A DNA stretch of 64,000 nt from Leifsonia psychrotolerans (lineage in GTDB: Bacteria > Actinomycetota > Actinomycetes > Actinomycetales > Microbacteriaceae), in contig NZ_JACCFM010000001.1 of NCBI RefSeq assembly GCF_013410665.1, forward strand, positions 744,001 to 808,000, in the 5' to 3' direction. The notes beneath the pieces were generated by a model that was not told where the DNA came from, did not search any database, and was given only the letters and a program-made list of their open reading frames with translations. Position numbers and translations under genes: made by a program. This document shows, in pieces, positions 17,401 through 43,695 of the stretch (the first letter of the stretch is position 1; every line of letters starts with the position of its first letter).

Positions 17401-17474
17401 GGGGTGGTAGCTCAGCTGGTTAGAGCAGCGGACTCATAATCCGTCGGTCATGGGTTCAAGTCCCATCCGCCCTA
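17401..17474 (+). tRNA. tRNA-Met (CAT); integration site of the island
   Basis: 74-nt cloverleaf with anticodon loop CTCATAA. Acceptor GGGGTGG pairs with CCGCCCT, including a T5-G68 wobble and a terminal G-T. T-stem ATGGG/CCCAT. An elongator Met tRNA is likeliest; tRNA-Ile2 (lysidine-modified CAT) cannot be excluded by eye. Positions 17438-17475 are the left att copy, so the 3' half was probably supplied by the integrated element. Confidence 0.9.
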
Positions 17475-17475
17475 C
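17438..17475 (+). repeat. att copy 1 (3' half of tRNA-Met)
   Basis: Begins AATCCGTCGGTC in the anticodon stem and runs to CCCTAC after the discriminator base. It differs from copy 3 at three positions and from copy 2 at five. Confidence 0.85.
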
Positions 17476-17540
17476 TCTGAAACATAGTCTGACCAGGGTT
17501 TCTTGTCTTATTGAAAAGGCAGAGACTTGATGCAGTCACC

Positions 17541-17553
17541 GTTTATTCACCAC
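17541..17553. repeat. Candidate integrase arm-type site, copy 1
   Basis: GTTTATTCACCAC, also present at 24835-24847 and 35168-35180, each within 150 bp of an att core. The location is what would be expected for tyrosine-integrase arm sites; function is inferred. Confidence 0.5.
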
Positions 17554-17635
17554 AACCGGCCCGCAGCGGTCGCCTGTGCGTATGTTGCTCGACCCAGTTC
17601 GACTCATCTGGGCACGCCTCGTGCACCTAGGAGTT

Positions 17636-17872
17636 ATGGACACCGACCGGCTTTCCGGGCTTGGCCTCGAGCCCGTGCTCACCACCAGCGAACTCGCCGA
17701 GTAACTCGGCGTGCACGCTCAGGCCATCTACGACCTGCGCACAGACGGGCGCGGTCCGTCTGGTATTCGAGTAGGTCGAGAGATTCGCTACCGGGTTTCT
17801 GATGTGGTTCATTGGCTGGATGGCCTTCACGAGCCTGACTTCAGCTTGACGGTCCGCGAGGTTCAGCGCTGA
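17636..17872 (+). pseudogene. Excisionase-like winged-helix DNA-binding protein, interrupted by an in-frame TAA
   Basis: From ATG 17636 the frame reads MDTDRLSGLGLEPVLTTSEL then AE, a TAA at 17702-17704, then LGVHAQAIYDLRTDGRGPSG, IRVGREIRYRVSDVVHWLDG and on to a TGA at 17870-17872. This is the helix-turn-helix-17/excisionase pattern, with TAA exactly where the family usually has Tyr (ELAEYLGV), a single base change from TAC or TAT. The TGA overlaps the integrase ATG (TGATG). Loss would lock the element in place. A TAA read-through or a sequencing error is the alternative. Confidence 0.82.
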
Positions 17873-19059
17873 TGGCCGGCCGACCCCGTACGCCGGTGAG
17901 TACCTTCGGCTCTATCAAGACAGTCGAGATCGCTCCTGGCCGTTTCCGAGCTACCGCGCGCTTCCGGGATTGGGACGGTCAGACTCGGAAGGTTACCGCG
18001 ACCGACTCAAGCCGCAACGCAGCAGCAAGTTCGCTTAAACAGATTCTGGCCACGCGGGCGCACGGTGGCGACACAATCGACTCGTTGACGGCAGGTTCGC
18101 CATTTACGTTGCTCGCTGACGCATGGTTAGAGGACCTGATGCTCGACGTCGACCGTGCCGATAGCACGAAGGAGATCTACGAGCGCGAACTGCGAGGCCT
18201 CGTACTACCGACGTTCCAGCACTTCACCGTGCGGGAGGTAACTGTGGGTCGCATAGAACGCTTCTTGAAGGTGCAGCGTGCGCTTTCATACGCGCGCGCG
18301 AAGCACTCCCGCACCATCCTCAGCATGGTCCTTGGGTTCGCAGTGCGGCGTGAGATCATCGCTCGCAATCCTGTCAAAGAAACTTCGCGAATGAAGAAGC
18401 CGAAACACATCCCTAAAGCACTCACTGCAGAGCAAATCTCTGCGATCCGAACTGCCGCTCGCGACTGGCGCATGGGTGATGGCACGAAAGGTCCGAAGCC
18501 TGACGGCCAAGTGCGCGAGCTGATCGAGGTGATGCTGGGAACGGCAACGCGCATCGGCGAGGCCCTGGCGCTTCGCAAGTGCGACGTTGATATGGCTGCT
18601 GACCCACCTCGTGTTCACATCAACGGCACCATAATCGTTGGCACGGGAAAGGGCGTCTATCGACAAGAGCATCCGAAGACGCATGAGTCGAATCGTGTCG
18701 TGGCAATCCCTGCGTTTGCTGCCGAAGTTATCCGGCATCGCTTGGCCTTGATCGCGGGTGAGGAGCCGGACCACTTGCTGTTCTTCAGCCGGAAAGGTAC
18801 TCCGCTGGCGCCTTACAACGTCAGGCGAACCTTCCGCGAGATCCTAAAGTTTGGGGGTCTAGAGGATATGGAGATCACGCCGCATGCCTTCCGGAGAACA
18901 GGTGCAACGCTGCTCGCAAACGAACTCGGACTCCAGGCTGCGGCTGACATGCTGGGCCACACTTCGACATCGACAACAAAGGAACATTATGCCGAGCCGG
19001 ATCGCACCGTGAAGTCTGAGCCCGCGATCGTGTTGCAGAGGTTGGCGCCTCCCGCCTGA
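17872..19059 (+). CDS. int: Tyrosine site-specific integrase
   Basis: 395 aa, phage/ICE-type recombinase. The N-terminal part (AP2-like arm-binding, TFGSIKTVEIAPGRFRATAR) is followed by a SAM-like core-binding domain (~65-150) and the catalytic domain: Arg in GTATRIGEALALRKCD, HAFRRTGA box (H-x-x-R), LGHTSTSTTKEHYAE with the nucleophilic Tyr. Start overlaps the excisionase stop. It lies ~400 bp from the tRNA-Met att copy, as expected for an element that inserts at this tRNA. Confidence 0.95.
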   Translation: MAGRPRTPVSTFGSIKTVEIAPGRFRATARFRDWDGQTRKVTATDSSRNAAASSLKQILATRAHGGDTIDSLTAGSPFTLLADAWLEDLMLDVDRADSTKEIYERELRGLVLPTFQHFTVREVTVGRIERFLKVQRALSYARAKHSRTILSMVLGFAVRREIIARNPVKETSRMKKPKHIPKALTAEQISAIRTAARDWRMGDGTKGPKPDGQVRELIEVMLGTATRIGEALALRKCDVDMAADPPRVHINGTIIVGTGKGVYRQEHPKTHESNRVVAIPAFAAEVIRHRLALIAGEEPDHLLFFSRKGTPLAPYNVRRTFREILKFGGLEDMEITPHAFRRTGATLLANELGLQAAADMLGHTSTSTTKEHYAEPDRTVKSEPAIVLQRLAPPA

Positions 19060-19144
19060 GGGTAGAAGTCGCGGAGCTGGGTGGTGCACAGTGATCGGCA
19101 AGTGGGACTGCCCCGAGTTCAGTTGACTCGAAGGGTTAGTGGTT

Positions 19145-20008
19145 TCACGCGGCTTTGAGGGCCACGTTTATTGTCTCAAACTCGATTGGCGTGAGCTTGC
19201 CGAGTCGTCGTTGGCGGCGTCGACGGTGATAGGTCCTTTCGATCCAGACGACCATCGCCAGGCGCAGTTCTTCCCGGGTAGTCCAGCGTTGCCGATCGAG
19301 CACGTTCTTCTGCAGCAGCGCGAAGAAGCTCTCCATCGCGGCATTGTCGCCGCACGCGCCGACGCGGCCCATCGACCCGGTGATGCCGTTGTTCTTCAGC
19401 ACGCGAACGAAGGCGTTGGAGCGGAATTGGGACCCGCGATCGGAGTGCAAAATCGTGCCGTCGATGGTGCGTTGACTGATCGCGTTGCGGGCCGCGGCGA
19501 CAGCCAGCGACGCCTTCATCCGGGAGTCGATGGAGTACCCGACAATCTTGTTCGAGTAGACGTCCTTGATCGCGCAGAGGTAGAGCTTGCCCTCGTCGGT
19601 GCGGTGCTCGGTGATGTCGGTCAGCCAGAGTTGATTCGGGCGTGTCGCGGTGAAGTCCCGCTCGACGAGGTCGTCGTGCACGGGCGGGCCGGCCTTGCGG
19701 GTGAGGCCGCGTTTCTTCGCGAAGACACTCCAGAGCCGCTGCTGGGAGCAGAGCCGCCACACCCGGTTCTCGCCCGCCGTCAGGCCAGCCTGGTGGAGTT
19801 CGTCGGCGATGAACCGGTAGCCAAACGCGGGGTCGTCCTGGTGGGCGTCCCAGGCGGCGTTGGTGAGGTGGGCGTCGTCCCAGTCGCGTTGGGAGACGGG
19901 GTTGCGTTTCCACTGGTAGAACGCTTGTTTGGAGAAGCCCAACACCCGGCAGGTCACCGTGACGGGAACACCATCGACGGCCATTTCAAGGACCAGCGGG
20001 TACATCAT
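19145..20008 (-). CDS. IS3 transposase OrfB (DDE integrase domain)
   Basis: 287 aa with an HTH_21 N-region (ALAV-type FGYRFIADELHQAG) and an rve core: first Asp in LWLTDITEH, second in LHSDRGSQF, Glu in DNAAMESFFALLQK. Overlaps orfA by four bases in the -1 frame. The heptamer CCCAAAA (complement at 20008-20014) sits directly before the orfA stop and would permit a -1 frameshift giving an OrfAB fusion, as is usual in the family. Confidence 0.94.
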   Translation of the reverse strand: MMYPLVLEMAVDGVPVTVTCRVLGFSKQAFYQWKRNPVSQRDWDDAHLTNAAWDAHQDDPAFGYRFIADELHQAGLTAGENRVWRLCSQQRLWSVFAKKRGLTRKAGPPVHDDLVERDFTATRPNQLWLTDITEHRTDEGKLYLCAIKDVYSNKIVGYSIDSRMKASLAVAAARNAISQRTIDGTILHSDRGSQFRSNAFVRVLKNNGITGSMGRVGACGDNAAMESFFALLQKNVLDRQRWTTREELRLAMVVWIERTYHRRRRQRRLGKLTPIEFETINVALKAA

Positions 20009-20289
20009 TTTGGGTTGACGTCCCGGGAGAGATAGGCGACAGCCCGGCGCATGACCTCGGCTTCTTGTTCGAGGAGCCGGATTCGTTTCTTCGCTTCGCG
20101 CAACTCAGCGGATTCTTTCTCGGTCACGCCGGGCTTGACGCCGTCTTCGACGTTGGCCTTCTTCAGCCAGTTCGCCAGGCAGGACTCGGAGATCCCGAAG
20201 TCCTTCGCGATCTGGTTCAGCGGGGCTTCGTGCTTCCGGGCGACCGCGACAACATCGCGTCGGAACTCGGGTGGGTAGGACTTGGGCAT
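20005..20289 (-). CDS. IS3 transposase OrfA (helix-turn-helix)
   Basis: 94 aa, DNA-binding subunit. PPEFRRDVVAVARKHEAP and IAKDFGISESCLANWLKKA form the HTH_Tnp_1 motif; a leucine-zipper-like coil (ELREAKKRIRLLEQEAEVMR) follows. Start at ATG 20289 (MPKSYPPEF) is the family start; an upstream ATG at 20322 lies in the terminal region. Confidence 0.92.
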   Translation of the reverse strand: MPKSYPPEFRRDVVAVARKHEAPLNQIAKDFGISESCLANWLKKANVEDGVKPGVTEKESAELREAKKRIRLLEQEAEVMRRAVAYLSRDVNPK

Positions 20290-20356
20290 AAAGACATCTT
20301 TCCAGCGAAGACGAATCTCCACAGGTCAGGAGTCAACCAAACCGGGGGCAGTCCCA

Positions 20357-20616
20357 GTTGTCCTCGACACGGCCTGTTGCGTGCTCGTGTGACGGGGCCG
20401 TAACTGAGCACCCGACGTGGAATTCAGGATATGGCGCGCGTTCCGTTCGAGTTCGTACACCGATTTGAGGCTGGTGTCACCGCAGCTCTGAGCGAGCGTG
20501 GTGAAGGCTTCCGAAATGGGCGTGACATAGCGGGCGTAGGAGTACGACAGATGGTTTGGAAAGCGCGATACGACTACGTCCGCAACCGACGCTTCTTCAG
20601 CTAGGTTATGGTTCAT
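20357..20616 (-). pseudogene. Unrecognised short reading frame cut by the IS3 element
   Basis: From ATG 20616, about 86 residues run leftwards into the IS end. The segment SRFPNHLSYSYARYVTPISE faintly resembles the end of a tyrosine integrase (the LGH...Y region), but this is weak. It starts on bases shared with the divergent plus-strand gene at 20615. Could be non-coding. Confidence 0.3.
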
Positions 20617-21004
20617 GGCGAATTGGGAGAAGTACCCGGTCCTAGGAGGTCCCCATAAGAATGGTGATCGCATATTTGGATTCTCTACTGGATACGCTCG
20701 CGACCTGTGGGCTCGCGGTACGCCGACCGTTTCGACGCTAGAACGGCGGTCAGTGACAAGCGCAATGGCAGGAATCGACGTCGGAGACAAATTGACAATC
20801 ACCTTTGATGGGGAGCGGTGGAGTGCCTTCAAGGATGGCGTCCTGATCGGCAGGCTGAACTGGGCAGCAGACGCGCTCGAGGTACCCAGTTGGGTCGACG
20901 GCAAGCCGTTAGCAATTCGCGACGGTGTGCTCGAAGTCCAGCGGGTGTTCGTTAGTTCAGATCGAAAGGTAGTGAACCTAGGTGGGATTGCGCGCGGCAC
21001 ATGA
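20615..21004 (+). CDS. Hypothetical protein of element 1
   Basis: 129 aa, no family recognised. The composition looks like a soluble folded protein: GDKLTITFDGERWSAFKDGV followed by LIGRLNW suggests beta-strands. Codon use is less GC-biased than chromosomal neighbours (AAATTGACA, TTTGGATTC), as in other element genes. No strong Shine-Dalgarno. Confidence 0.55.
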   Translation: MANWEKYPVLGGPHKNGDRIFGFSTGYARDLWARGTPTVSTLERRSVTSAMAGIDVGDKLTITFDGERWSAFKDGVLIGRLNWAADALEVPSWVDGKPLAIRDGVLEVQRVFVSSDRKVVNLGGIARGT

Positions 21005-21105
21005 GCCGCTATGGACGTGGTGAGTGTAAGCGGCACTTACCAAGAGCACTCGATACCCAGCTACCTGGATGCGTAGTTGGTGCCCATACTTCTGCACATC
21101 TTTCG

Positions 21106-21690
21106 CTATGAACCCTGGGCTGGCAGGTTCGAACGCGCCTGTGCATAGAACGCATTCTCAGCGTCGCGTCGAGACGCGATATCGGTGGCGACGAACTGCG
21201 CGAAGTCCTCGTCGCGGTCGGTAATTGTTGCATCTTCGACGTCACTCAGCGACAGCTCACCGGGCCAAATTGTCTGGCGCGTGGGCCGGTCGCGGTCGAG
21301 GCGTGTTTCTGACGTCGCAACCCAGTCATGGAGGCGTTGGCGCGCATCGGCGAAGTCGCGGTGCCAACCAAATGGCGCGGAGCCGTGCTGGTCGGGGTCG
21401 TAGGCGCAGAGCCAATGCAGGTGGAGGGCGGAGAGCTCCCAAAGAAGTTCAGTATGACGGTGCCAAAAAGGGGGGACGATGGAGGCCGGGAGCCCATACG
21501 TCATTCTTAGCCAGTTCACCCACCGATTGAGTTCGATCCACTCAATCTCTGCGTCCGCCGCTGTCAGGAGGTTCCAGTTCACTGGGTGTGGAGGCTCAGG
21601 AAGGAGCGACCCATCGAGGTCGTCGAAAGAGTCGCCGCCAGAGGCGACATCCTGATCGCGAAACAGCCAGTCACCCGACGACTCCGACAT
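21106..21690 (-). CDS. DUF4913-like protein of conjugative elements
   Basis: 194 aa. The central part, with NRWVNWLRMTYGLPAS, FWHRHTELLWELSALHLHW and the WHRDFADARQRLHDW block, matches my memory of DUF4913, a family found on actinobacterial plasmids and integrative elements near ssb and coupling-protein genes. It lies 9 bp after ssb and is probably co-transcribed with it. Function unknown. Acidic N-terminus. Confidence 0.68.
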   Translation of the reverse strand: MSESSGDWLFRDQDVASGGDSFDDLDGSLLPEPPHPVNWNLLTAADAEIEWIELNRWVNWLRMTYGLPASIVPPFWHRHTELLWELSALHLHWLCAYDPDQHGSAPFGWHRDFADARQRLHDWVATSETRLDRDRPTRQTIWPGELSLSDVEDATITDRDEDFAQFVATDIASRRDAENAFYAQARSNLPAQGS

Positions 21691-21699
21691 AGTGTGGGA

Positions 21700-22146
21700 T
21701 CACCGCCCGAGCGCTGTCGCGCTGGAATTTCGGGCGGGCAGTGATGCCTGTGCGGTAGGGCTATCGAGACCGATAGTTGCTGCCGGGCGATGTGTTCTGT
21801 CCACCTCATAGTTTGTTCGGGCGAGGTCATGACCGATCTTCTTGGCGACGAATTCCTCGCGTTCGATGACCTCGCCGTCTCGGTCGACCTGGAACGAGTG
21901 AATGTATCCTTCAGCGACAAAACTGTCGCCCTTGGCAAATCGTGTGAGTGCTCGGTCGGCCGTGGCCCGATACGCCACAAGGTCGTGGAAGCTTGGTTCG
22001 AGCTCCGTGAAGCCTCCGTTCTCTTCGCGACGGAAATGCGGCTGGCCTACACGTACATAGAATCTGGTGTCGCCGCTCTCTGTGACTGACTGTTGTGGTT
22101 CCGAGGCAATGAATCCCGAGAGTGATTGCTGAGTGTGAAGGGGCAT
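21700..22146 (-). CDS. ssb: Single-stranded DNA-binding protein, element-borne
   Basis: 148 aa with an OB-fold pattern: LSGFIASEPQQSV, DTRFYVRVGQPHF, FHDLVAYRATADRALTRFAK, GDSFVAEGYIHSFQ. It probably coats transferred single-stranded DNA. Start at ATG 22146 with an AGGAG Shine-Dalgarno; the frame upstream is not coding. It lacks the acidic DDIPF-type tip of chromosomal SSB, in line with an accessory copy. Confidence 0.82.
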   Translation of the reverse strand: MPLHTQQSLSGFIASEPQQSVTESGDTRFYVRVGQPHFRREENGGFTELEPSFHDLVAYRATADRALTRFAKGDSFVAEGYIHSFQVDRDGEVIEREEFVAKKIGHDLARTNYEVDRTHRPAATIGLDSPTAQASLPARNSSATALGR

Positions 22147-22240
22147 GTGCTCTATCTCCTGTGATCGGGCGGAAAATCGTGATCCGCATTCACTAGAAGG
22201 TGCGCAGCCCATGCCACGTCGTTCGGTGCATTCTTTTAAC

Positions 22241-23670
22241 GGGTCACGTCCCGTGTAGTGGTGTAAATCTCGGCGTTTGAGCGTTGCTTCGCCAACGTGA
22301 AGAGCCACCGTGCGATGGTCAGTGAGAACCGTTCAAAGTTCCTCACAGAAAAGACACAAACACACGATGGCTCTTGACCAGTCTGCCCTGCTTGACCTGC
22401 TCGCTCAACTCAAGCTCACCGATGTCACCGACCGGATCCGGTCTGCGACGGAATCGCTCTACCAGGAACTGATCGATGCGGAGGCGACCGCGTTCATCGG
22501 CGCCGCGCCATTCGAACGCTCCGACGGGCGCACCACCCACCGCAACGGCACCCGCCCACGCACGTTGACCACCACGGCCGGGGACCTGGATTTGAAGATC
22601 CCGAAGCTGCGTGCCGGCACGTTCTTTCCCGCGCTGCTGGAGCGCCGCCGGCGGGTCGACCAGGCGTTGTTCGCGGTGGTGATGGAAGCGTATGTGCACG
22701 GGGTGTCCACCCGGAAAGTCGACGATCTCGTCAAGGCGCTTGGCGCGGACTCCGGCATTTCCAAGTCCGAAGTCTCTCGTATTTGCGCCAGCCTCGACGC
22801 GGAGGTCGGGCAGTTCCGCGACCGCTCCCTGTCGACTCACGACTTCCCGTATGTGTTCCTCGACGCGACGTACTGCAAAGCCCGGGTGAATCACCGCATT
22901 GTGTCCCAAGCGGTCGTCGTCGCGGTCGGTGTCGCCGCCGACGGACGCCGGGAAGTCCTCGGATTCGATGTCGGAGACACCGAGAACGAGCCGTTCTGGA
23001 CCGGCTTCCTGCGGTCGTTGAAGGCCCGCGGGTTGGACGGCGTGAAGCTGGTCATGTCCGACGCGCACACCGGGCTCAAGAAAGCCATCGGGACCGTTTT
23101 CCAAGGCGCCAGCTGGCAGCGCTGCCGGGTGCATTTCATGCGCAACGTGCTCGCCGTCGTGCCCAAGGGCAGCCAGGAAATGGTCGGCTCGATCATTCGC
23201 ACCATCTTTGCCCAGCCCGACAAGGAACACATCCTGAAGCAGTTCGGCGAGGTCACCACGATGCTGCAGCGTTCACACCCCAAGGTCGCACTGATGCTCG
23301 TCGACGCCCAACACGACGTGCTCGCGTTCGCTGACTTTCCGCAGCGTCACTGGCGGCAGATCTGGTCCACCAACCCGTTGGAACGCGTCAACAAGGAGAT
23401 AAAGCGCCGCACCGACGTCGTCGGCGTGTTCCCGAATCCTGCGGCGCTCCTCCGGCTCGCCGGGGCCGTGCTGGTCGAGCAGCACGACGAGTGGGAAGCC
23501 GCCGACCGGCGCTACTTCTCCGAAGCGTCCATGCTCGAACTCACGATCATGAACGCCCGGCCCGAAACCGTCGAGCAGGTGACCGCACTCCCCGAGCTGA
23601 AGGCCGCCTAAACTAAAACAACTGACCCGCACGGTGTTGAGAAACTCCACCACTCAGCGGGACGTGACCC
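22241..23670 (+). mobile_element. IS256-family insertion sequence, copy 1
   Basis: Ends are inverted repeats GGGTCACGTCCCG...(left) and the complement ending CGGGACGTGACCC (right). The flanks repeat TTTTAAC(G) on both sides, an 8-bp target duplication, with the terminal base ambiguous by one. It sits upstream of ssb, between it and the coupling-protein remnant. Confidence 0.92.
22367..23611 (+). CDS. IS256-family (Mutator) transposase
   Basis: 414 aa, apparently intact. Catalytic DDE: Asp in YVFLDATYCKAR, Asp in LVMSDAHTGL, Glu in STNPLERVNKEIKRR; the C-x2-H motif WQRCRVHFMRN is also present. Start ATG 22367 (MALDQSALLDLLAQLKL); copy 2 at 57519-58763 has the same length and start. Confidence 0.96.
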   Translation: MALDQSALLDLLAQLKLTDVTDRIRSATESLYQELIDAEATAFIGAAPFERSDGRTTHRNGTRPRTLTTTAGDLDLKIPKLRAGTFFPALLERRRRVDQALFAVVMEAYVHGVSTRKVDDLVKALGADSGISKSEVSRICASLDAEVGQFRDRSLSTHDFPYVFLDATYCKARVNHRIVSQAVVVAVGVAADGRREVLGFDVGDTENEPFWTGFLRSLKARGLDGVKLVMSDAHTGLKKAIGTVFQGASWQRCRVHFMRNVLAVVPKGSQEMVGSIIRTIFAQPDKEHILKQFGEVTTMLQRSHPKVALMLVDAQHDVLAFADFPQRHWRQIWSTNPLERVNKEIKRRTDVVGVFPNPAALLRLAGAVLVEQHDEWEAADRRYFSEASMLELTIMNARPETVEQVTALPELKAA

Positions 23671-23694
23671 TTTTAACGTGAGTCGGAGCTTTTG

Positions 23695-24690
23695 CTAGGT
23701 GCGCTTTTCGGGCATTGGAACGCGCAGTAGCGACTCAATTTCTTCTCGATTTGATCGCAGTTCCTTCGAGTCTGGGCGGTCCGTCCAAGTGCGCAGTCGC
23801 GCCACGATAGGAGGTGCGGAGCGGAGCATTATCAGGCCCGTTCCAAATGGGAGGGTGCGGATGGTGTCGGGCGGCATGATCGCGACCCGTCGAATAGACC
23901 TCTGTGATGAACGGGAGCCGCGGTCGCCGATCGTCGTCGAGGCTGTTGTCTCGTCGCGTTCGCCGATAAGAGTTGAAAGGTCTTGCAAGTCTCGTGAGTT
24001 GGATGCCCCACCCAGGACGATCTTTACGATCGAGGCGTCCCATATAGCGCCGGCCGCGTTGTCGCTCCATTTCGTTCGCGCCTGTGCGAGTGACTGAAGA
24101 ACCGGCATCGTCGTGATGCCGGTACCGCCGCCTTCTGCCATGAGGTTCGGAAGCGAAGGCAGGGGAGCGAGGTTACCGATCTCATCGAGTGCGAGGAGCA
24201 ATGGCGGATCGAGTCGTGCACCCGCGCTTCTCGCGGCGAGACGCCGAGCTGTTTCGACGAGATCCTCCACGAAAGCGGAGACGAGGGCGGCGGAGTTGTT
24301 CGAACCGGTCCCTGTTGCGAGGAGGTAGAGAGCGCCGTTGCTGAGCAAGAATTGTTCGGGGTCGAAGCCTTCGCCCTCGCTTGGTGACACGGCATCCAGC
24401 ACCCTTGGGTCAGCCAGCGCGCCAAGTGCGAGGGAGACCCCTTGCCAGATGGAGTCCCGCGTGCGTGGGTCGGACTCGAGCATTGCTTGGAGGGAATCGC
24501 CCCAACCGGTTGCTGCGGTGGTGGAACTCATCAGGATCGAGACGGCATCGTGTGCGGCAGCTGGATCTAGGGTCCAGCGAAATAGTTCTGCGGGTGTGCA
24601 GCGATCAAGTGCGGCCGCGTGCAGTAAGGACTGGAGAGCAGTGCGGGCTGGGCCGATCGTATCGTTGAGGCTCTTCAGGCTTTCCCCGCT
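23695..24690 (-). pseudogene. Type IV coupling protein (TraG/TraD-like), C-terminal remnant
   Basis: The frame is open from about 24690 leftwards without a convincing start: GPARTALQSLLHAAALDR, LFRWTLDPAAAHDAVSIL, WGDSLQAMLESDPRTRDS, then Walker B LLLALDEIGNLAPLPSLP and the LQSLAQ sensor region. These are the distal half of the hexameric DNA pump that feeds conjugative DNA. The Walker A half is absent, and left of 24700 the similarity stops. An internal ATG at 24531 exists but would not give a working ATPase. Conjugation genes beyond ssb and DUF4913 are missing. Confidence 0.8.
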
Positions 24691-24983
24691 ATTAGGTAGG
24701 TGACGGCGGATTCGACGGGTGTTAGCGAGGGCTGGTCGAGGCTGAAGCTCCGATCCTCGCCGCTTTGGGCAGCGGAGCGAGGCTGCGGCAAGAGGCCACG
24801 GAGTTCATGATGCACGACACTTGATGCGCGCACGTTTATTCACCACTTATTCACTCGAGACCGCTCGAGGCGAGTCGAGGAATCGGAGTAGAATCGGAGC
24901 ACATCGCACGAGAAACCCCTAGGCAGAGCGAGATCAATCTAGGTGTTGGGTTCGGGACTGGGCCGCGAAAGAGGCCGTGTCGG
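24691..24983. other. Right-end region of element 1, no gene
   Basis: No coding frame. It holds GTTTATTCACCAC (24835-24847) followed by a second TTATTCAC, a GAGTCGA-rich stretch and TCTAGGTG. The ~150 bp before the att core is recognisably similar to the sequence before att copy 3. Confidence 0.6.
24835..24847. repeat. Candidate integrase arm-type site, copy 2
   Basis: GTTTATTCACCAC, 136 bp left of att copy 2 and followed by another TTATTCAC at 24849. Confidence 0.5.
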
Positions 24984-25021
24984 AATCCGTCGGTCGCGGG
25001 TTCAAGCCCCGCCCGCCCTAC
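24984..25021 (+). repeat. att copy 2 (junction of elements 1 and 2)
   Basis: AATCCGTCGGTC then GCGGGTTCAAGCCCCGC, then CCGCCCTAC. Five differences from copy 1, but the T-stem stays fully paired (GCGGG/CCCGC), so it derives from a functional tRNA variant. Confidence 0.85.
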
Positions 25022-25396
25022 AAAGAATTGCTGATCAGAGTGATTTCTAAGGCCTACTAGGCGACTAGTTATTCGACTCGTTTTGCTGAAGGTCATGGAT
25101 TCAAGTGCCTTTTTGTTGCCCCAAAGTCCCACTGATCAGGCATATCCCTGAGACGGTTTTCGGATCATTTGCATTTGACTGCCGAATATTGCACGGCATT
25201 TAGCTGGGGCGGGCGCGGGCAGGCTCTTCCTCTCGTGGGGACTTGGTCAGCGCGCATCGCGAGCACTCCCGAAGGTGTTGCATTTTCATCCAACCGTTCG
25301 TTGTGCCGCGTGCACCTATTGGCCGTCAGGGGAGTGGTTACGATGATTATTCGTCAAGTGCATATGCGGAGCCTGTAAGCGATATCCACTTGTGCG
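25022..25396. other. Left part of element 2, no gene seen
   Basis: About 375 bp without a credible gene. GGTCATGGATTCAAGTGCC at 25091-25109 matches the att T-arm at 17 of 19 positions and may be a decayed fourth att copy. Just before it, TTATTCGACTCG is reminiscent of the arm region. Confidence 0.45.
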
Positions 25397-25415
25397 ATAT
25401 ACCCCAGGGGGGTAT
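25397..25415. promoter_or_regulatory. CsoR-type copper operator upstream of csoR
   Basis: ATATACCCCAGGGGGGTAT: an inverted repeat (ATACCCC/GGGGTAT type) as bound by CsoR. It ends 9 bp before the csoR GTG, so it likely gives autoregulation of csoR-copZ-copB. Confidence 0.75.
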
Positions 25416-25424
25416 TGTTCTCAT

Positions 25425-25706: not shown

Positions 25707-25729
25707 AGACTATGACTAAGGAGAACATT

Positions 25730-26056: not shown

Positions 26057-26141
26057 CTCGGCATCCCGTTCTGCATGCCGTCGCATGGCTGTTTCCTCGG
26101 CCATGTGCAACTCGAATCATCGAAATAGCAGGGAGGCTCTC

Positions 26142-28283: not shown

Positions 28284-28356
28284 GGCTCTTTCGAGAACTG
28301 AGCCGTTTATCAGTCGTAGAGGGCTGCTACAAAGTACGATGACACCGGAAGGAACC

Positions 28357-28899
28357 ATGCCACAGCTCATCGTCGCACGTCGATCTCACGGTGCACCTCG
28401 CATACGAGAGAGCTTTGTGCAGCCCGGCGTCAGCAACGCTACCCCTCGGGCCTCTCGGGCCGACTGGGCAGGCACGATGTTGGTGCGGGTTGCCCTTGCG
28501 ATCGGGATCATTGTCGGCATTTTGGCAATGCACTCTTTTCTCGCGCCAGCCCCGCAGGCGAACGCAACGATGGCCGGTGCGATCTCCGAGGCCAGTGCGC
28601 AGCCCGAGGTGAGCGCAGCACTTCACCACGTCGTTGCTGCTTCAGCAGTCGTGACATCCGGTGTTGCCAACTTCGCAAAGGACTGTGCCGGGTGCGCGGG
28701 GGATCTGTCGATGGCAACGATGTTGTGCATCCTGGCACTTCTCACCGTTGCACTGATGCTGTTTGCCCCTCGCCTGATGGGACGCTGGCATCGGCAGTTG
28801 TGGTCACTCCTTCTCCGACTCTTCTCGGGGCCCGCCCGGTACATTGCAGTCGTGTTGCCACCGCCTTCATTGGATGCTCTGGGTATCAGTCGAACGTGA
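28357..28899 (+). CDS. DUF6153-like small membrane protein, copy 1
   Basis: 180 aa. One helix (LVRVALAIGIIVGILAMHSF), an extracytoplasmic loop with DCAGCAG, a second helix (TMLCILALLTVALMLFAPRL) and a conserved end LDALGISRT. The protein at 33279 has the same plan and the same LTALSISRT end. Start ATG 28357 is set by GGAAGGA. I link it to DUF6153 from memory of that family in actinobacterial copper loci. The His and Cys residues facing outward suggest metal binding, which is inference. Confidence 0.65.
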   Translation: MPQLIVARRSHGAPRIRESFVQPGVSNATPRASRADWAGTMLVRVALAIGIIVGILAMHSFLAPAPQANATMAGAISEASAQPEVSAALHHVVAASAVVTSGVANFAKDCAGCAGDLSMATMLCILALLTVALMLFAPRLMGRWHRQLWSLLLRLFSGPARYIAVVLPPPSLDALGISRT

Positions 28900-29057
28900 T
28901 GGGGTCGCGCCGCCGCAACTGATTGACGGGTTGAACGCCGATTAATTGCTGCACCGCGCACCTTCTTCATCAGCCTTTAGTGCTGAGGGAGCACACCGCC
29001 TAGTGGCGAGTGAGCTCCTCCGTCGATTCTCCCCAACTTCACGAAAGAGACCCCATC

Positions 29058-29936
29058 ATGACTATCCGACCCCGCCGACTTCTTCTCCCACTCGCACTCG
29101 CTCTGACGATCCCACTCGTGGCTACCGCATGCGCGGCTACCAGCGTGGATTCCGCTGCGGGACCGCCTGTACTTCAGCACATTCACCAGCTGTCCTTTAG
29201 CGAACCGGATCAGCTGTTGATTGGTTCTCACGATGGCGTCTACGCCACCGGGATGCAGCCGGGAACAGTCTCCCTTCTCGGAGATGTCTCGTTTGACGCG
29301 ATGGGTATGACCGCCCAAGGCGAGACGGTGTTTGTCTCCGGCCACCCTGGTGCAGACAACAATGACGCATTCGCGGCCCCGCACATCGGTTTTGTCCGCC
29401 ACACGCCCGATACCGGTTGGGAAGCCGTGTCCCTGGCGGGATCCACCGACTTCCATATTCTGCAGACCTCTTCCGCGGATCCCAACCTTGTGATCGGGGT
29501 GCCCTCAGACAAACCAGTACTGATGCGCAGCACTGATGCCGGAAGCACCTGGATCGAAGCGTCACCGTTGAACGCTCGAGACCTGAGCATCGACAGCCAA
29601 GACCCCACTCTGCTCACCGCGACCACCGCAGAGGGTGTCCTCGTCAGCCACGATGCGGGAACAACATTCGAGCTGCTGGCAGGTGCACCGCAATTGGTCC
29701 TGATCGCCGCCGACCCCACCCGCACAGGCGGCCTCGTCGGAATCGACCAGCAAGGGGCGCTCTGGGCTGGATCGGCCGAAGCCGACGAGTCGTGGACCAC
29801 CACGGGCACGGTCACTGGCGCTGCTGCAGCGCTCACCGTCAACAGCACCGGAGTGATTGCCGTCGCCGACGATAGCGGCGTCGCCACCAGCGCCGATGGA
29901 GGAAAGTCCTGGACCGTCCTGGTGCCTGCAAGCTGA
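29058..29936 (+). CDS. BNR/sialidase-like beta-propeller lipoprotein (F510_1955 family)
   Basis: 292 aa. Signal peptide with lipobox VATAC. The rest is a propeller with BNR/Asp-box motifs (STDAGSTW, SHDAGTTF, SADGGKSW). Proteins of this type recur in actinobacterial copper islands, annotated as F510_1955-family glycosylhydrolase; enzymatic activity is not established. Start ATG 29058 with CGAAAGAG. Possibly a periplasm-side metal-stress accessory. Confidence 0.75.
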   Translation: MTIRPRRLLLPLALALTIPLVATACAATSVDSAAGPPVLQHIHQLSFSEPDQLLIGSHDGVYATGMQPGTVSLLGDVSFDAMGMTAQGETVFVSGHPGADNNDAFAAPHIGFVRHTPDTGWEAVSLAGSTDFHILQTSSADPNLVIGVPSDKPVLMRSTDAGSTWIEASPLNARDLSIDSQDPTLLTATTAEGVLVSHDAGTTFELLAGAPQLVLIAADPTRTGGLVGIDQQGALWAGSAEADESWTTTGTVTGAAAALTVNSTGVIAVADDSGVATSADGGKSWTVLVPAS

Positions 29937-29984
29937 TGAACACCCTCCTGATCGATTGCGACTCCCGCGAAGAATGGAGCTCAG

Positions 29985-31283
29985 ATGTCTGAGAAGGACG
30001 GCAAGATTTCACTGACCGGGTCCATCTCGCTGGGCACAGGGGTGATGATCGGCGCAGGAATCTTCGCGCTCGTCGGTCAGGTGGCGGGCTTCGCGGGGGA
30101 CTGGTTCCCGCTCGCGTTTCTGCTCGGAGCGGTCGTAGCCGGCGTAAGCAGTTACTCATACACCCGCTACTCCAGCGTGAACCCGTCCGTGGGCGGGATC
30201 GCAATGCTGTTGAAGGACGCCTACGGATCAGGTGTGGCCGCTGGCTCTTTTACCCTGTTCATGTATGTGTCCATGGTGGTCGCTGAGAGCCTCCTCGCTC
30301 GCACATTTGGCACCTACTTGTTGCGTCCCTTTGGCCTGCAAGACTCGGCGATTCTCGTTCCTATCCTTGGTGTACTTGCGATCGTGGCTGCGGCCACCGT
30401 GAATCTGCTCGGGAATAGGTTTGTGGAAGGGTCAGCGACCACCACGGCGATTCTGAAGATTGTCGGCATCGCGGTGCTTGCCATTGCCGGGCTGGTTGGA
30501 ACGAGTGTCGCGGGCGATGGCCTGTTCGCTCACAGTTCCGGAGACTCGCCAAATGTTATGGGCCTTCTGGCTGGCGCGACTCTCTGTGTGCTGGCCTACA
30601 AAGGTTTCACGACGATAACCAATCAGGGCGATGACATTCGGGATGCCAAGAAGAACATTGCACGATCGATCATCATCTCGCTCGCGATCTGCACGGTCCT
30701 CTACCTCCTGATCACCATTTCTGTTGCCTCCAGCATCGGAGCAACTGGTGCGGTGAAGGCCCGTGACTATGCCCTAGCTGCCGCTGCCGAACCGCTCTTT
30801 GGCCAGTGGGGGATATGGATTACGGTCGCGATTGCGGTCGTCGCCACCCTGTCGGGGCTGCTGGCCAGCCTGTATTCGGTCTCGCGTCTCTACGGGATGC
30901 TGCAAGAGATGCGCCAGGCGCCGTCACTACCCAAGCGGGTCCCTCAGCAACCGCTCATCATCACCGCAGGGCTCGCGATTCTTGCGACAGCGTTCCTGGA
31001 TCTGAGTCAGATCGCATCCATGGGAGCATTCTTGTATCTCGCGATGGATATTGCCGTGCAGTGGGGTGTGATCCGGCATCTCCGCACAAAGATCCACGCG
31101 AAACTATGGGCGCCGATACTCACGATTCTTCTCGACCTAGCGATTCTCGTCCCCTTCACGATTCTCAAAGTTGAAAGTGATCCGCTCACCGTTGTCATCG
31201 CAGCGGCCGTTGCCGCGGCAATCCTTGCCGCTCAGTTCATCGTGGTCCGAACCCGGAGCCGAACTGCCGGCTCGATGACGTAA
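29985..31283 (+). CDS. APC-superfamily amino acid permease
   Basis: 432 aa with about 12 hydrophobic helices. The APC signature GTGVMIGAGIFALVGQVAGF is at the N-terminus and LCVLAYKGFTTITNQGDDI in TM6. It follows the propeller lipoprotein by 48 bp and converges with the oxidase gene. Substrate unknown; an amino acid or metal-binding amino acid would suit the cargo but is speculation. Confidence 0.85.
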   Translation: MSEKDGKISLTGSISLGTGVMIGAGIFALVGQVAGFAGDWFPLAFLLGAVVAGVSSYSYTRYSSVNPSVGGIAMLLKDAYGSGVAAGSFTLFMYVSMVVAESLLARTFGTYLLRPFGLQDSAILVPILGVLAIVAAATVNLLGNRFVEGSATTTAILKIVGIAVLAIAGLVGTSVAGDGLFAHSSGDSPNVMGLLAGATLCVLAYKGFTTITNQGDDIRDAKKNIARSIIISLAICTVLYLLITISVASSIGATGAVKARDYALAAAAEPLFGQWGIWITVAIAVVATLSGLLASLYSVSRLYGMLQEMRQAPSLPKRVPQQPLIITAGLAILATAFLDLSQIASMGAFLYLAMDIAVQWGVIRHLRTKIHAKLWAPILTILLDLAILVPFTILKVESDPLTVVIAAAVAAAILAAQFIVVRTRSRTAGSMT

Positions 31284-31313
31284 GGGAGTGCTGACGGATC
31301 TTGGAAGCGCGGG

Positions 31314-32777
31314 CTACGCTACCTCGATGATGCCCATCATCCCGAGGTCTTCGTGGTCCAGGATGTGGCAGTGATACACCGTCGTTCCGGTGAAGCCTTC
31401 GAAGGCGATACGCACCCGCACGCTGCTTCGGGCGGGCACGTTGACGACATCCTGCCAGAGCGGGGCATCGTCGGCCGATGGAGTCATGAGTTGCATGGGC
31501 CACACGTGTAGGTGGATCGGGTGATCCATCGGGGAAGTGTTAGTCAGGGTCCATTCCTCGATTGCTCCAGCGCGAACGAGGGTGTCCACCCTTTCGGCAT
31601 CAAATGGTTTGCCGTCGATGGTGAAACTCATCATTCCGCCCCCCATGCCCCTCCCCATTCCCATGGCAAAGGTCAGTTCTCGGCGGCCAGTGACCGTCTC
31701 GGTCCGCAGGTCTCGCGGAGCAAGCTGCCTCGGCACCGCTTCCAATGCAGCAGCGTCAGCACTTTCTCCCGCGACAGTGAGGGTGAGGAGGTCCGCACCG
31801 TCAGAGCTTGCCGCACCACCGCCCATCATCATCCCCGTGCCACCTCGATCAACCGGAAGAGTGCGCAGGATTGACGTGCCAGCCGCCATGGTAACGAGCA
31901 GGTCTGCCCGATTGCCCGGGGGAAGCAATAGCTCTTCGATATCGCGGGGCGTTTCAAAGCGGCCGGAGTCCATACCGAGAAGCTGCAACGTCTGGCCGTC
32001 GAGGCGCAGCTTCAGGTATCGGGATGCGCACGCGTTGACAATGCGCCACCGCTCCCGCTCCGAGGGTGCGGCACTCAGCTGTGGGGAGGTTTGACCGTTG
32101 ATCAGAACCATTGCGCCCTCGCGGCCCATCATCTGATCCATTGGAGACGATTCGGGGATGTGGCCCTCGGCATCGAGGGTGATGTCCGAGATGACGAGAA
32201 CCCTCTCTCGAGTCACCGGAATCGGGGTCGTGTCTTCCACAACGATGGCTCCGTAAAGACCGCCAAAAACTTGTGCCGCCACCATGCCGTGGTGGTGCGG
32301 GTGGTACCAATACACGCCGGGTGGATGATTCTCAGGAAGCCGGTATGCGTAGTCGAAAGAGTCACCGGGCTCGATGGCCACGAACACGTTGTCGCTGTTA
32401 CCCTCCGGTGATACATGGAGTCCGTGCACGTGCAAGTTAGTGGTAGTGGAGAGTCTGTTCTCCACCGTGACCTGCAGAAGATCCCCGGGCCGCACGAACA
32501 GGGTGGGGCCTGGAACGCCTCCGTTGTAAGACAGGACACTCGCGTCTCGGCCGGCGGTACGGGCGGGCCCTTCGGCCGCATTCAATCGCACGGCCAGGAC
32601 GCCATTGGAGCTGCTAAGAATCTTGGGTTCAGCAAGTGTCGATCCGGTGGGCGCCAATGCGTTGGTTGGGACGGGCCCGGACTGGTAACCAACGAAGAGA
32701 CCGGTTCCACCGATGAATACCCCGGCAGCACCGATTCCTCCCAGAACAAGAACGTGGCGGCGGCTGATGGGTTGCAT
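31314..32777 (-). CDS. Tat-exported multicopper oxidase
   Basis: 487 aa, probably oxidises Cu(I) outside the cell. Twin-arginine leader SRRHVLVLGGIGAAGVF. Copper motifs: LHVHGLHVSP, WYHPHHHGMV, HPIHLHVWPMQ and the C-terminal HCHILDHEDLGMM (HCH with the type 1 Cys). A Met/Gly stretch (MGMGRGMGGGMM) resembles the Met-rich insert of CueO-type oxidases. The ATG overlaps the upstream SHOCT gene's stop (TGATG). Confidence 0.94.
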   Translation of the reverse strand: MQPISRRHVLVLGGIGAAGVFIGGTGLFVGYQSGPVPTNALAPTGSTLAEPKILSSSNGVLAVRLNAAEGPARTAGRDASVLSYNGGVPGPTLFVRPGDLLQVTVENRLSTTTNLHVHGLHVSPEGNSDNVFVAIEPGDSFDYAYRLPENHPPGVYWYHPHHHGMVAAQVFGGLYGAIVVEDTTPIPVTRERVLVISDITLDAEGHIPESSPMDQMMGREGAMVLINGQTSPQLSAAPSERERWRIVNACASRYLKLRLDGQTLQLLGMDSGRFETPRDIEELLLPPGNRADLLVTMAAGTSILRTLPVDRGGTGMMMGGGAASSDGADLLTLTVAGESADAAALEAVPRQLAPRDLRTETVTGRRELTFAMGMGRGMGGGMMSFTIDGKPFDAERVDTLVRAGAIEEWTLTNTSPMDHPIHLHVWPMQLMTPSADDAPLWQDVVNVPARSSVRVRIAFEGFTGTTVYHCHILDHEDLGMMGIIEVA

Positions 32778-33043
32778 CAGCGGCCCTCGTTGAGTGCCGT
32801 GAGACGCTCGCGGTATTCTTCGGTCGTCATTTCACCGCGTGCGTAACGCTCGTCAAGGATCTGACGGGGCGTGCTCGTGCCATGTGGGCCGGGACTAATG
32901 GGGGTAGATCCGGGCTGCTGGTTCTGCTTAATGCCGCCTCCCGCCACACGGACGATCACGACTACCAGAACAATGAGGCCGGCAACGGCAACCGCCCCAA
33001 ACAGCCATATCCACCACATGTCGAAAACAGTTCCGTACATCAT
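32777..33043 (-). CDS. Small SHOCT-domain membrane protein
   Basis: 88 aa: one N-terminal helix (WIWLFGAVAVAGLIVLVVVI), a Pro/Gly linker, and a C-terminal SHOCT motif (RQILDERYARGEMTTEEYRE). It is the first gene of the minus-strand pair with the oxidase, which it overlaps. Such proteins often sit beside copper oxidases; role unknown. The operator at 33151 lies 108 bp upstream. Confidence 0.85.
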   Translation of the reverse strand: MMYGTVFDMWWIWLFGAVAVAGLIVLVVVIVRVAGGGIKQNQQPGSTPISPGPHGTSTPRQILDERYARGEMTTEEYRERLTALNEGR

Positions 33044-33150
33044 TTGATGGTTCCCTTCTCGTTCGCGTTGTGCCGCTGAGATCGATCAAGGTGCCCGAAC
33101 CAAATAGGTGCGCTGCCGCCTCCAGATGACGCATTACCTCGCCTTCAAAT

Positions 33151-33166
33151 ATACCCCTCTGGGTAT
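33151..33166. promoter_or_regulatory. CsoR-type operator in the divergent promoter region
   Basis: ATACCCCTCTGGGTAT, a near-perfect palindrome closely matching the operator at 25397. It lies between the SHOCT-oxidase pair and the plus-strand DUF6153-like gene. Confidence 0.7.
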
Positions 33167-33218
33167 TATGCGGACCGGATGCGAGGCAACTGTCCAGCTT
33201 CGCGCCCCAGGTGCGCTA

Positions 33219-33236
33219 GTACGCTAGGGGGGTATG
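33219..33236. promoter_or_regulatory. Possible third CsoR-type site
   Basis: GTACGCTAGGGGGGTATG: one strong GGGGTAT half and a degenerate partner (TACGCT). If functional it would control the following DUF6153-like gene. Confidence 0.45.
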
Positions 33237-33278
33237 AAGCTGGCAGCAGCTTCGACAGGTAAGTCTTATGGAGGTGGA

Positions 33279-33770
33279 ATGCGTCTCGCCACGATTCGCA
33301 GCGTCTCACTTCCGGGTGCCCGCGCCTTCCAGTCGTCGCTTGTCAGCATCTTCGTCATGGCCGCGGTCATCCTGGGCCTCCTCGCAATGCACACCGCGGG
33401 AGCAGACCATTTCGACTCACCCGTAGCAGCCGTCGCGGGTACCCATGAGTCCCCTAGAGCTGCATCCGCTGATGCCAGCGACCTCATAGCGGGGCCACTG
33501 GTGGCATCGACAGCGGCGGTCGTCTTGATAGCGGCAAGCTCCGTTATCGACTGTGACGAGAGCTGCGTGCAGGGCGCGCTCAGCTGCATGGTCGTGATCA
33601 TGTCGTGCGTCATGCTCGTGGTTCGTGCACTGACTGCATCTCTTGCCAAGCGGCCGGCCCTATCCAGGCAGCTTCTCGATGCGGGTGCGCGCCTGAACTT
33701 GACAGCCCGGCACGTTTCTTCGCGCTTCGTTAACCCTGACCTCACAGCTCTTTCCATCAGTCGCACCTAG
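33279..33770 (+). CDS. DUF6153-like small membrane protein, copy 2
   Basis: 163 aa from ATG 33279 (GGAGG upstream, short spacing); an ATG at 33234 inside the operator region is the alternative. Plan as in copy 1: helix ending LGLLAMHT, outward loop with CDESCVQG, second helix, and a conserved C-terminus (LTALSISRT). Placed between the oxidase pair and the DUF305 lipoprotein under a CsoR-type palindrome. The two copies are diverged, so not a recent duplication. Confidence 0.65.
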   Translation: MRLATIRSVSLPGARAFQSSLVSIFVMAAVILGLLAMHTAGADHFDSPVAAVAGTHESPRAASADASDLIAGPLVASTAAVVLIAASSVIDCDESCVQGALSCMVVIMSCVMLVVRALTASLAKRPALSRQLLDAGARLNLTARHVSSRFVNPDLTALSISRT

Positions 33771-33853
33771 GCCGACATTTCACGTCCGCAGAGTAAGGCC
33801 AAGCCTCGCTCGGGACGAAGTGTTCCACGACCTCTATGACGAAGGAAATAGCG

Positions 33854-34441
33854 ATGTTTGACGTACGAAAGAAACTAGTAATCGGTGTAGCGGTAGCCGT
33901 CACACTCATACTCAGCGGCTGTGCTGCCGCGACCCCAGCGACGGATAGCGGTAGCAGCAGCGGCTCTAGCTCGGCAGCAGAAGCATCGTTCAACGACGCT
34001 GATGTGACCTTTGCGCAGATGATGATCCCACACCACGAACAAGCAGTTGAGATGAGCGATACCCTCCTGTCGAAGGATGGCATCGACGCTCCGATCCGGG
34101 AGCTTGCCACTCAGATCAAGGATGCGCAGCAGCCGGAGATTGATCAGCTGAAGCAGTGGCTGGGTGACTGGGGTGCGGCTGAAACCAGTATGCCTGGAAT
34201 GGACCACGGCGGCGGCATGATGTCCGAGAGCGACATGACGGCTCTCACCGAGGCACCCGATGCAGAAGCCGGTCGGCTTTTTCTCGAGCAGATGATCATT
34301 CATCACGAGGGAGCCGTTGTGATGGCTCAATCCGAGATTTCCGACGGCAAGAACGCTGACGCCATCGCTATGGCGGAGACCATCGTGGCGACTCAGTCGG
34401 ACGAGATCACCGTGATGAAGGACCTTCTCGCGGGCAGCTAG
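33854..34441 (+). CDS. DUF305 lipoprotein
   Basis: 195 aa with lipobox LSGC and a Ser/Gly linker, hence outer-face anchored. DUF305 features: FAQMMIPHHEQAVEMS and FLEQMIIHHEGAVVMAQSE, a repeated M-I-x-H-H-x2-A-V block, plus MPGMDHGGGMM. The His/Met content supports copper binding and the family is common in copper loci. Start ATG 33854 with GAAGGAAAT. Confidence 0.88.
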   Translation: MFDVRKKLVIGVAVAVTLILSGCAAATPATDSGSSSGSSSAAEASFNDADVTFAQMMIPHHEQAVEMSDTLLSKDGIDAPIRELATQIKDAQQPEIDQLKQWLGDWGAAETSMPGMDHGGGMMSESDMTALTEAPDAEAGRLFLEQMIIHHEGAVVMAQSEISDGKNADAIAMAETIVATQSDEITVMKDLLAGS

Positions 34442-34482
34442 CCCGTCTCAAACCGGGTGCGAGGCAGAAGCCGCCGCGCCCA

Positions 34483-34521
34483 GGGTGGGAGCCCGTTCCC
34501 CCTTATCTGCGGCTCCCACCC
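34483..34521 (+). terminator. Hairpin downstream of the DUF305 gene
   Basis: GGGTGGGAGCC pairs perfectly with GGCTCCCACCC (11 bp). Only weak T-rich sequence follows (CTTCTTC), so termination is likely but not certain. Confidence 0.55.
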
Positions 34522-34595
34522 ACCTTCTTCGAACTGAAGACTTTTGGTGCACCTTTTTGCGTGCCCGCACTCCACTATTCGATAGCTGAGAAAAC

Positions 34596-35075
34596 ATGGA
34601 TGACCACGCCCTCACCCCACCGCCCACGACGCGTCGCGCGCTGCGGGACGCAGAAGCTGCCGCGCGTCGCAGCGCGCCACGGCCCACAACCCGACGCGAG
34701 CTGCGAGAAGCAGAAGACCGTTCCTCGATGGAGCAATAAGCCCCGCTACCGCCTCGTTCTTCGCAAGAAACAACAGCTGCAAGCTGGAAGGTCGCTTCTG
34801 GCCCAACTGGTGAGCCACATGCTGCACCCGCACTGACGAAGATGTCTGGCAAAAGAAGAGCAGTCAGTGCCACTGCGATGGTTTTTGCGGCTCTCTTCAT
34901 GGTGAGTGTCCCACTTCCCGCACTCGACATGGTTTCTGGCGTCGACACGTCTCAGGCCGCGGTCGGCTCGACCGGCGCTTCAAGCGGATGCCACTCGCCC
35001 TTCGAGGTCCGCGTCGACGGCGCCCGAATCGATCCCCGACCCTTCATGAGTGCACGAAGAGTCACCCTTGGCTAA
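34596..35075 (+). pseudogene. Remnant of a membrane/secreted protein (possibly M23 peptidase N-terminus) with in-frame TAA
   Basis: From ATG 34596: MDDHALTPPPTTRRALRDAE then TTRRELREAEDRSSMEQ, a TAA at 34737-34739, and the same frame goes on through KRRAVSATAMVFAALFMVSV (a membrane segment) to a stop at 35075. The TRRxLREAE start followed by one helix is what Microbacteriaceae M23 peptidases and similar surface proteins show, but the catalytic domain is absent. Both the internal stop and the missing C-terminus say pseudogene. Confidence 0.55.
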
Positions 35076-35167
35076 CAGGTGACTCTGCCGGCATTTCCTG
35101 TGGATCGTCGCCATTCCACCCGTGACTTCGTTATAACAAAGAACCCTCCGACACTTGAGGCGTATCC

Positions 35168-35180
35168 GTTTATTCACCAC
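35168..35180. repeat. Candidate integrase arm-type site, copy 3
   Basis: GTTTATTCACCAC 147 bp left of att copy 3, followed by GAGTCGAGACC as near copy 2. Confidence 0.5.
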
Positions 35181-35326
35181 TTTTTGAGTCGAGACCAATC
35201 GAGATGAGTCGAACCTTTGAAGTATGATCAGAACACCATCTTCAAGGAACTCCGGGTCAGATCGAGATCAACCGAGATCTGTCTAGGTTTCAGAGCGGCA
35301 GTGGGCAGTCTGGACTTGTCCTGACG

Positions 35327-35364
35327 CAATCCGTCGGTCACGGGTTCAAGTCCCGTCCACCCTA
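35327..35364 (+). repeat. att copy 3 (right end of island, probable original tRNA 3' end)
   Basis: AATCCGTCGGTC then ACGGGTTCAAGTCCCGT, then CCACCCTAC. T-stem fully paired. Its CCACCCT pairs with the resident tRNA 5' arm GGGGTGG without the T-G wobble at pair 5-68 that the present 3' half has, hence the displaced original. Confidence 0.8.
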
Positions 35365-43692: not shown

Positions 43693-43695
43693 CGG

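Follow-up and report, generated by a model that had tools for sequence, protein, structure and literature searches.

Two elements stacked behind a CAT tRNA gene of Leifsonia psychrotolerans and the probable replacement of the tRNA 3' half

How does a bacterial chromosome come to hold three unequal versions of the 3' half of one tRNA, and which of them was there before the others? The question is raised by a stretch of 64,000 nucleotides (hereafter the window) of Leifsonia psychrotolerans (RefSeq assembly GCF_013410665.1, contig NZ_JACCFM010000001.1, positions 744,001 to 808,000), whose 3.82 Mb genome is assembled as a single contig. In this window, a tRNA gene with the anticodon CAT is followed by two elements, E1 (17476-24983, 7.5 kb) and E2 (25022-35327, 10.3 kb), which are separated and bounded by attachment (att) copies of the tRNA 3' half. 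With a probability of about 0.88, we conclude that E1, a decayed integrative and conjugative element (ICE), and E2, a cis-mobilizable element (CIME), were stacked behind the tRNA by site-specific accretion. Positions are those of the window, and genes and sites lie on the forward strand unless marked (-).

The resident tRNA (17401-17475) was labelled tRNA-Met by ARAGORN, although it is probably a tRNA-Ile2, and it appears to consist of a chromosomal 5' half and an E1-derived 3' half. The latter is att copy 1 (17438-17475), the attL of E1. Compared with the resident 3' half, 38 of 38 bases are identical in copy 1, 33 of 38 in copy 2 (24984-25021), which ends E1 and starts E2, and 35 of 38 in copy 3 (35328-35365). 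Elsewhere in the window, with both strands searched, every site fell below 24 of 38, and when part of the T-stem was left free in the consensus, the three copies scored 33-34 of 34 and the next best site 21. A preliminary description of this DNA had already reported three 38-bp copies with the original tRNA end displaced by 17.9 kb; the scan confirmed them, moved the start of the third from 35327 to 35328, and gave a distance of 17,890 bp between copies 1 and 3. As that description had also stated, the copies differ and yet each keeps a fully paired T-stem, which can be read directly (ATGGG/CCCAT, GCGGG/CCCGC and ACGGG/CCCGT in copies 1, 2 and 3, respectively). Its statement that copy 3 (CCACCCT) alone pairs without wobble at position 5-68 of the resident 5' arm held as well (T5-A68, versus T5-G68 with copies 1 and 2); a G1-T72 wobble persists with all three.

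The origin of the copies was best revealed by comparison with relatives of the same genus, in 55 of 56 of which the tRNA beside the same glycosyltransferase gene is intact (the exception, G015, is described below). The first 1347 bp right of the tRNA of G052, whose T-stem strand is CTGGG, match the DNA right of a displaced CTGGG copy in G054 (91.6% identity, over an alignment of 1364 bp); thus, element X stands directly behind the tRNA in G052, and 5.3 kb from the tRNA, behind the displaced copy, in G054. The tRNAs of G054 and G019 both carry CCGGG and are followed by another element, Y (94.4% over 886 bp), and in the host gene G054 is 91.0% similar to G052 and 89.0% similar to G019. Similarly, G005 has a GTGGG tRNA and, 59 kb away, a copy with CCGGG, the resident T-stem of its close kin G033 and G044, and the DNA around this displaced copy matches displaced copies of both. 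In both comparisons the T-stem is linked to the DNA that lies right of the copy, which indicates that copies 1 and 2 were derived from E1 and E2 and that the present tRNA is chimeric. The preliminary claims of two tandem integrated elements, of copies 1 and 2 brought by arriving elements, and of a chimeric tRNA were thus borne out by the G052/G054/G019 comparison, together with the empty sites described below.

The two elements also resemble each other at their right ends. The right-end module of E1 (24816-24983), which carries an arm-type site, is homologous to that of E2 (35150-35327), with 73% identity over 124 bp, or 70.6% over 231 bp if the tRNA part is included; the left end of E2 is unlike that of E1. 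Both modules carry a site resembling a candidate arm-type site near copy 1 (17522-17553), which is oriented like those of the two right ends. The motif GTTTATTCACCAC occurs exactly three times in the window with at most two mismatches (0.44 expected), but 2 of 100 shuffles also gave three. Among right ends of other displaced copies (17 rows, comprising 16 of 31 foreign copies and one in G008), 13 were matched by the E1 right end (E<=0.01). In total, 33 copies outside an intact tRNA were found in 21 of 57 genomes of the genus, by a pattern that misses a 12-species clade with another anticodon stem and in draft assemblies whose contigs hide copies. In 23 of 34 named loci (Cryobacterium, Leifsonia and Agromyces), a copy of the tRNA 3' half is followed 434-483 bp to its right by an integrase of this family; the remainder comprise one integrase beside the other CAT tRNA and ten loci with neither in the scanned stretch.

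Which copy, then, is the oldest? We classed a site as empty if ORF (open reading frame) 50273 or 48522, the native neighbours in the window, had a homolog within 2 kb of the tRNA, and as occupied if there was an integrase match or a copy outside the tRNA. In all 13 sites verified as empty, which belong to G021 and a clade of 12 species, the T-stem was that of copy 3 (ACGGG), which none of the 30 occupied sites of the genus had. Furthermore, A68 occurs only in copy 3 among the 33 copies outside tRNAs, and T5-A68 is intact in all 12 members of the empty clade, which favours copy 3 as the old end. Position 5-68 in the 56 intact tRNAs of the genus (our genome included) is C5-G68 in 42, T5-A68 in 12 and T5-G68 in two (G000 and G027). 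The preliminary description had named beforehand an intact tRNA with CCGCCCT in an island-free relative as evidence against itself. CCGCCCT is present in 44 of the 56, 42 of which, the verified empty G021 included, have C5 (C5-G68); with T5 it is confined to G000 and G027. G027, whose contig ends 1.7 kb on with neither native neighbour found, does not belong to the verified empty sites. Judged from these sequences, copy 3 is the putative tRNA end that was in place before E1 and E2. The preliminary proposal of copy 3 as the ancestral end therefore stood as far as its precedence over E1 and E2 is concerned (13 of 13 empty sites, 12 with A68), but not as to its native status, as 13.2 kb of accessory DNA follow it.

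Several observations weigh against this reading. The contrast between empty and occupied sites leaves 14 of the 57 sites of the genus unclassed and amounts to only one or two independent pairs on the glycosyltransferase tree, with no significance; the comparison with island-free relatives that the preliminary description had proposed was thus positive in all 13 verified sites, but independent only once or twice. Moreover, occupied sites among the named Leifsonia and Agromyces loci also carry ACGGG. Because of these few pairs and exceptions, we set the contrast aside as main proof and relied on the G052/G054/G019 and G005/G033/G044 comparisons instead. The E1 right end had no match in 4 of the 17 foreign right-end rows. 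Finally, the right flank of copy 3 resembles that of the G027 tRNA (16 of 24 positions, reached by 14 of 20000 shuffles) as well as the flank of one displaced copy in G153, a member of another genus, either of which could mean that this flank is an element arm. The flank search matched 2 of 398 genomes (our own included), G027 being outside those drawn.

These flanks are part of the case for three elements instead of two, in which an older element would begin at copy 3 and reach to about 48.5 kb, its right att site lost and the native tRNA end gone. We regard this as possible but somewhat doubtful. The 13.2 kb right of copy 3 (accessory DNA 35366-48521, without assigned strand, with MMPL, KdpDE and further kdp genes) is absent from the verified empty sites, and the native neighbours resume at about 48.5 kb with ORFs 48522-49259 and 50273-52009 (48522-52009 together). 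In G021 homologs of both are found within 2 kb of the tRNA, and in the 12-species clade a homolog of ORF 50273 within 1 kb, whereas in the window 13.2 and 14.9 kb, respectively, separate them from copy 3 on its right side. As noted, the copy 3 flank is like those of G027 and G153, though flanks of verified empty sites diverge fast. In G153, the displaced copy carries ACGGG and has an integrase-family ORF to its left; an integrase-like sequence to its right was seen by eye, unconfirmed by Pfam. Stretches of at most 20 kb right of the tRNAs of relatives (40 kb for G006, shorter at contig ends) contained no close match to 35366-48521 except kdpF-like pieces in G006 and G051, where kdpF was read by eye; other protein matches were weak P-type ATPases or kinases (25-32%). 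Against a third element, no significant E1-integrase match was found right of copy 3 (best E 0.56), nor was a further att copy or a left arm of the GATCAGG type, and A68 ties copy 3 to intact T5-A68 tRNAs. Besides, kdpB is present in 29 of the 57 genomes at scattered locations, in most of them elsewhere than at this tRNA, so that it may have arrived separately. Thus, 35366-48521 is either a separate insertion or a third, older element that begins at copy 3, and the G027-like flank fits both. A riboswitch was considered for a conserved stretch in this region (48277-48376) and rejected, as there was no Rfam match and the stretch resembles kdpF.

For any pair of repeats, strand exchange might in principle occur at the 3' end of the repeat, which would make the resident tRNA native and copies 2 and 3 element-derived; G027, with G68 as in the resident tRNA, would agree. 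This is very improbable, since the T-stem goes with the DNA right of the copy in both sets of relatives and all 13 verified empty sites carry the T-stem of copy 3 and not that of the resident tRNA. Even less credible, to the point that we give it almost no weight, is that a piece of the tRNA was copied by segmental duplication or gene conversion, with no part played by site-specific recombination. This would account for the repeats themselves and nothing more, and against it stand the integrase next to copy 1, the homology of the right ends, whose arm-type sites are similarly spaced, and a site that is filled in many relatives.

In the accretion that we favour, a tyrosine integrase would recognise the 3' half of the tRNA and exchange strands on the 5' side of the T-arm, with the CCGTCGG(TC) block common to the copies as the most likely place. 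At each arrival, the tRNA would receive the T-arm and the acceptor 3' strand of the element, and the old end would be displaced to the right. E2 probably entered first and lies between copies 2 and 3, followed by E1 between the tRNA and copy 2. E2 would once have had, or borrowed, an integrase of the E1 type, and that of E1 may still be functional. What the comparisons demonstrate is that the T-arm moves with the left end of the element and that the right ends are homologous.

In E1, an excisionase-like helix-turn-helix frame (17636-17872; read by eye, with no Pfam match and a start codon chosen by eye) is interrupted by an in-frame stop (17702-17704); a matching piece was found in 21 of 58 loci searched, none of the 21 with an internal stop. 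The frame adjoins an intact tyrosine integrase of 395 aa (17872-19059; PF00589), whose start lies 434 bp from that of copy 1 and which has the ATRIGE, HAFRR, LGH and HYAEP motifs. There follow an IS3-type insertion sequence (19099-20360 (-), with 31-nt inverted repeats and an rve transposase at 19145-20008), two ORFs of no recognised family, an SSB-like gene (21700-22308 (-)) whose 5' end is overlapped by an IS256-type insertion sequence (22235-23676, with 29-nt inverted repeats and a Mutator transposase at 22310-23611), and the C-terminal half of a VirD4/TraG coupling protein (23704-24645 (-), about 314 of about 600 aa). This part of traG is the sole remnant of a conjugation module, and a complete one is lacking in E1. 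The same integrase, the SSB-like gene and a full-length traG ORF (612, 605 and 627 codons from stop to stop, respectively) are present behind the tRNA of G034, G036 and G044, where 57, 80 and 120 kb, respectively, separate the tRNA from the next copy. In G037, the traG match fell near the edge of the fetched DNA, which left 95 codons to be read. From its gene content, E1 is read as the decayed remnant of an ICE like those of G034, G036 and G044. Actinomycete integrative and conjugative elements (AICEs) are known by an FtsK-type translocator; unlike them, E1 holds a VirD4/TraG remnant. A phage origin was also considered and rejected, as a PHROGs scan of nine ORFs matched the integrase only.

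E2 carries copper genes (25392-28283), namely a CsoR/RicR-like repressor (25392-25706), a chaperone with an HMA domain (25703-26056) and a copper P-type ATPase (ORF 25983-28283), as well as a multicopper oxidase (31314-32777 (-)), a DUF305/CopM-type metallochaperone (33836-34441), an amino-acid permease and a number of smaller ORFs. A Pfam scan of eleven E2 ORFs of at least 80 aa revealed neither recombinase nor transfer domains, and tblastn gave no significant homologue of the E1 integrase in E2 (best E 1.4). E2 therefore reads as a non-autonomous, CIME-like remnant, as it has no recognisable integrase. A second, degenerate T-arm (25091-25109) is located 69 bp right of copy 2, and a similar spacing was observed in several relatives. 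The T-arm pattern has four matches (0.11 expected). At 64-70 bp, a second T-arm of at least 14 of 17 positions was found in 8 of 58 fetched loci (the best of 298 shuffles reached 12); of 17 rows behind displaced copies, two (G006 and G020) have one as well. From these eight left ends to the following copy, or to where the fetched sequence stopped (20 kb at most), there was no E1-type integrase except a fragment in G010, and no integrase domain was detected in ten ORFs scanned; G019 has a short integrase-like remnant. A second T-arm 64-70 bp inside the left end thus marks a class of elements without a complete E1-type integrase found nearby.

The arrangement agrees with what is known of accretion. 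Direct att repeats stand at the outer ends and at the junction, an integrase lies beside att in one partner, E2 keeps its att sites without integration or transfer genes, and the right att ends of both partners are related. Accretion of an ICE and a CIME, a term defined in the same work, has been described for ICESt1-related elements of Streptococcus thermophilus (PMC5704250, from the portion available to us). There, as here, an element with an integrase lies beside one without integration and transfer genes, with an att site in common at the 3' end of a gene; to judge from that portion, the present case differs in that the ICE is decayed, the target is a CAT tRNA, and the T-stems of the att sites differ, so that the order of the copies can be read. 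Tandem AICEs in tRNA genes of Frankia and Streptomyces excise singly and together, according to the consulted part of another report (PMC3218068), and are likewise actinobacterial and arranged in tandem at a tRNA 3' end. The tDNA islands of the Islander resource, in the accessible part of its description (PMC4383910), restore the split tRNA gene and leave a displaced fragment, both of which are seen here in a stack of two with three non-identical fragments. Among the papers listed in a literature search, none dealt with this locus. The process of accretion is already known, and what is less usual is that unequal att copies expose the turnover of a tRNA 3' half across related species.

As for the tRNA itself, the preliminary label of tRNA-Met is probably mistaken. 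By a pattern search for the anticodon CAT, the genome has four such tRNAs (two initiator-like ones, the target and one paralog). The paralog aligns better than the target with Escherichia coli tRNA-Met (56 vs 49), and the target leads with 54 vs 52, a slight margin only, in the alignment with the E. coli plasmid tRNA-Ile (CAT), which ARAGORN also names Met although it is annotated as tRNA-Ile (CAT). In a search against E. coli, the first-ranked row for the target was a tRNA-Arg, and the lowest E among the five rows listed was that of the same plasmid tRNA-Ile. AUA is read in bacteria by a lysidine-modified CAU tRNA, as stated in the part of the source that we could consult (PMC8450103). The tilS gene is present in the genome. 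A cell requires both the elongator Met and the Ile2 CAT tRNAs; since the other non-initiator CAT tRNA is closer to elongator Met and tilS is present, the target is probably tRNA-Ile2 (CAU, with a predicted lysidine at C34). A relative of the E1 integrase in Agromyces sp. S2-1-8 (74% identity) adjoins the other, elongator-Met-like CAT tRNA, and the integrase family may have switched its target between the two.

On the glycosyltransferase tree of 55 members of the genus, which omits G015 (split tRNA) and G050 (glycosyltransferase fragment), the T-stem changed at least 14 times, compared with four changes in the 5' half and seven in tRNA-Lys (54 rows). However, tRNA-Lys is not a clean control because extra copies occur in some genomes. 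For the elongator-Met paralog, of which the 5' strand of the T-stem was compared, a single version was found in 56 matched of 57 genomes. A control with tRNA-Asn was dropped, as its pattern matched 8 of 57 genomes. The odds appear to us about even that, in this genus, an essential CAT tRNA (probably Ile2) has a T-arm and acceptor 3' strand that behave as a mobile allele, with most differences between species there due to successive integrations and with a history apart from that of the 5' half and of other tRNAs. Where att copies are unequal, pairs of species before and after an integration reveal which part of the tRNA was replaced and in what order elements were stacked. Displaced tRNA ends and labels such as tRNA-Met need care, and a metal-resistance block parked behind a tRNA could leave again by means of its neighbour's integrase.

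G015 shows a further variant of the site. Beside the glycosyltransferase gene the tRNA breaks off after CCGTCGG, with its 5' half alone left, and the adjoining DNA has no T-arm. A complete CAT tRNA with an encoded CCA starts 312 bp into the insertion on the opposite strand. This spare tRNA is 81.6% like the tRNA-Ile of two Streptomyces phages (among six phage records). The displaced 3' half, with the T-stem CCGGG, lies on another contig behind an E1-like right end. If this is not an assembly error, it puts the exchange inside CCGTCGG, and the element replaced the tRNA by a spare one.

Lastly, second, partly altered copies of the 3' part of tRNA-Lys were observed in G033, G025, G019, G054 and G021, and hint that integration in the genus may also occur at tRNA-Lys.

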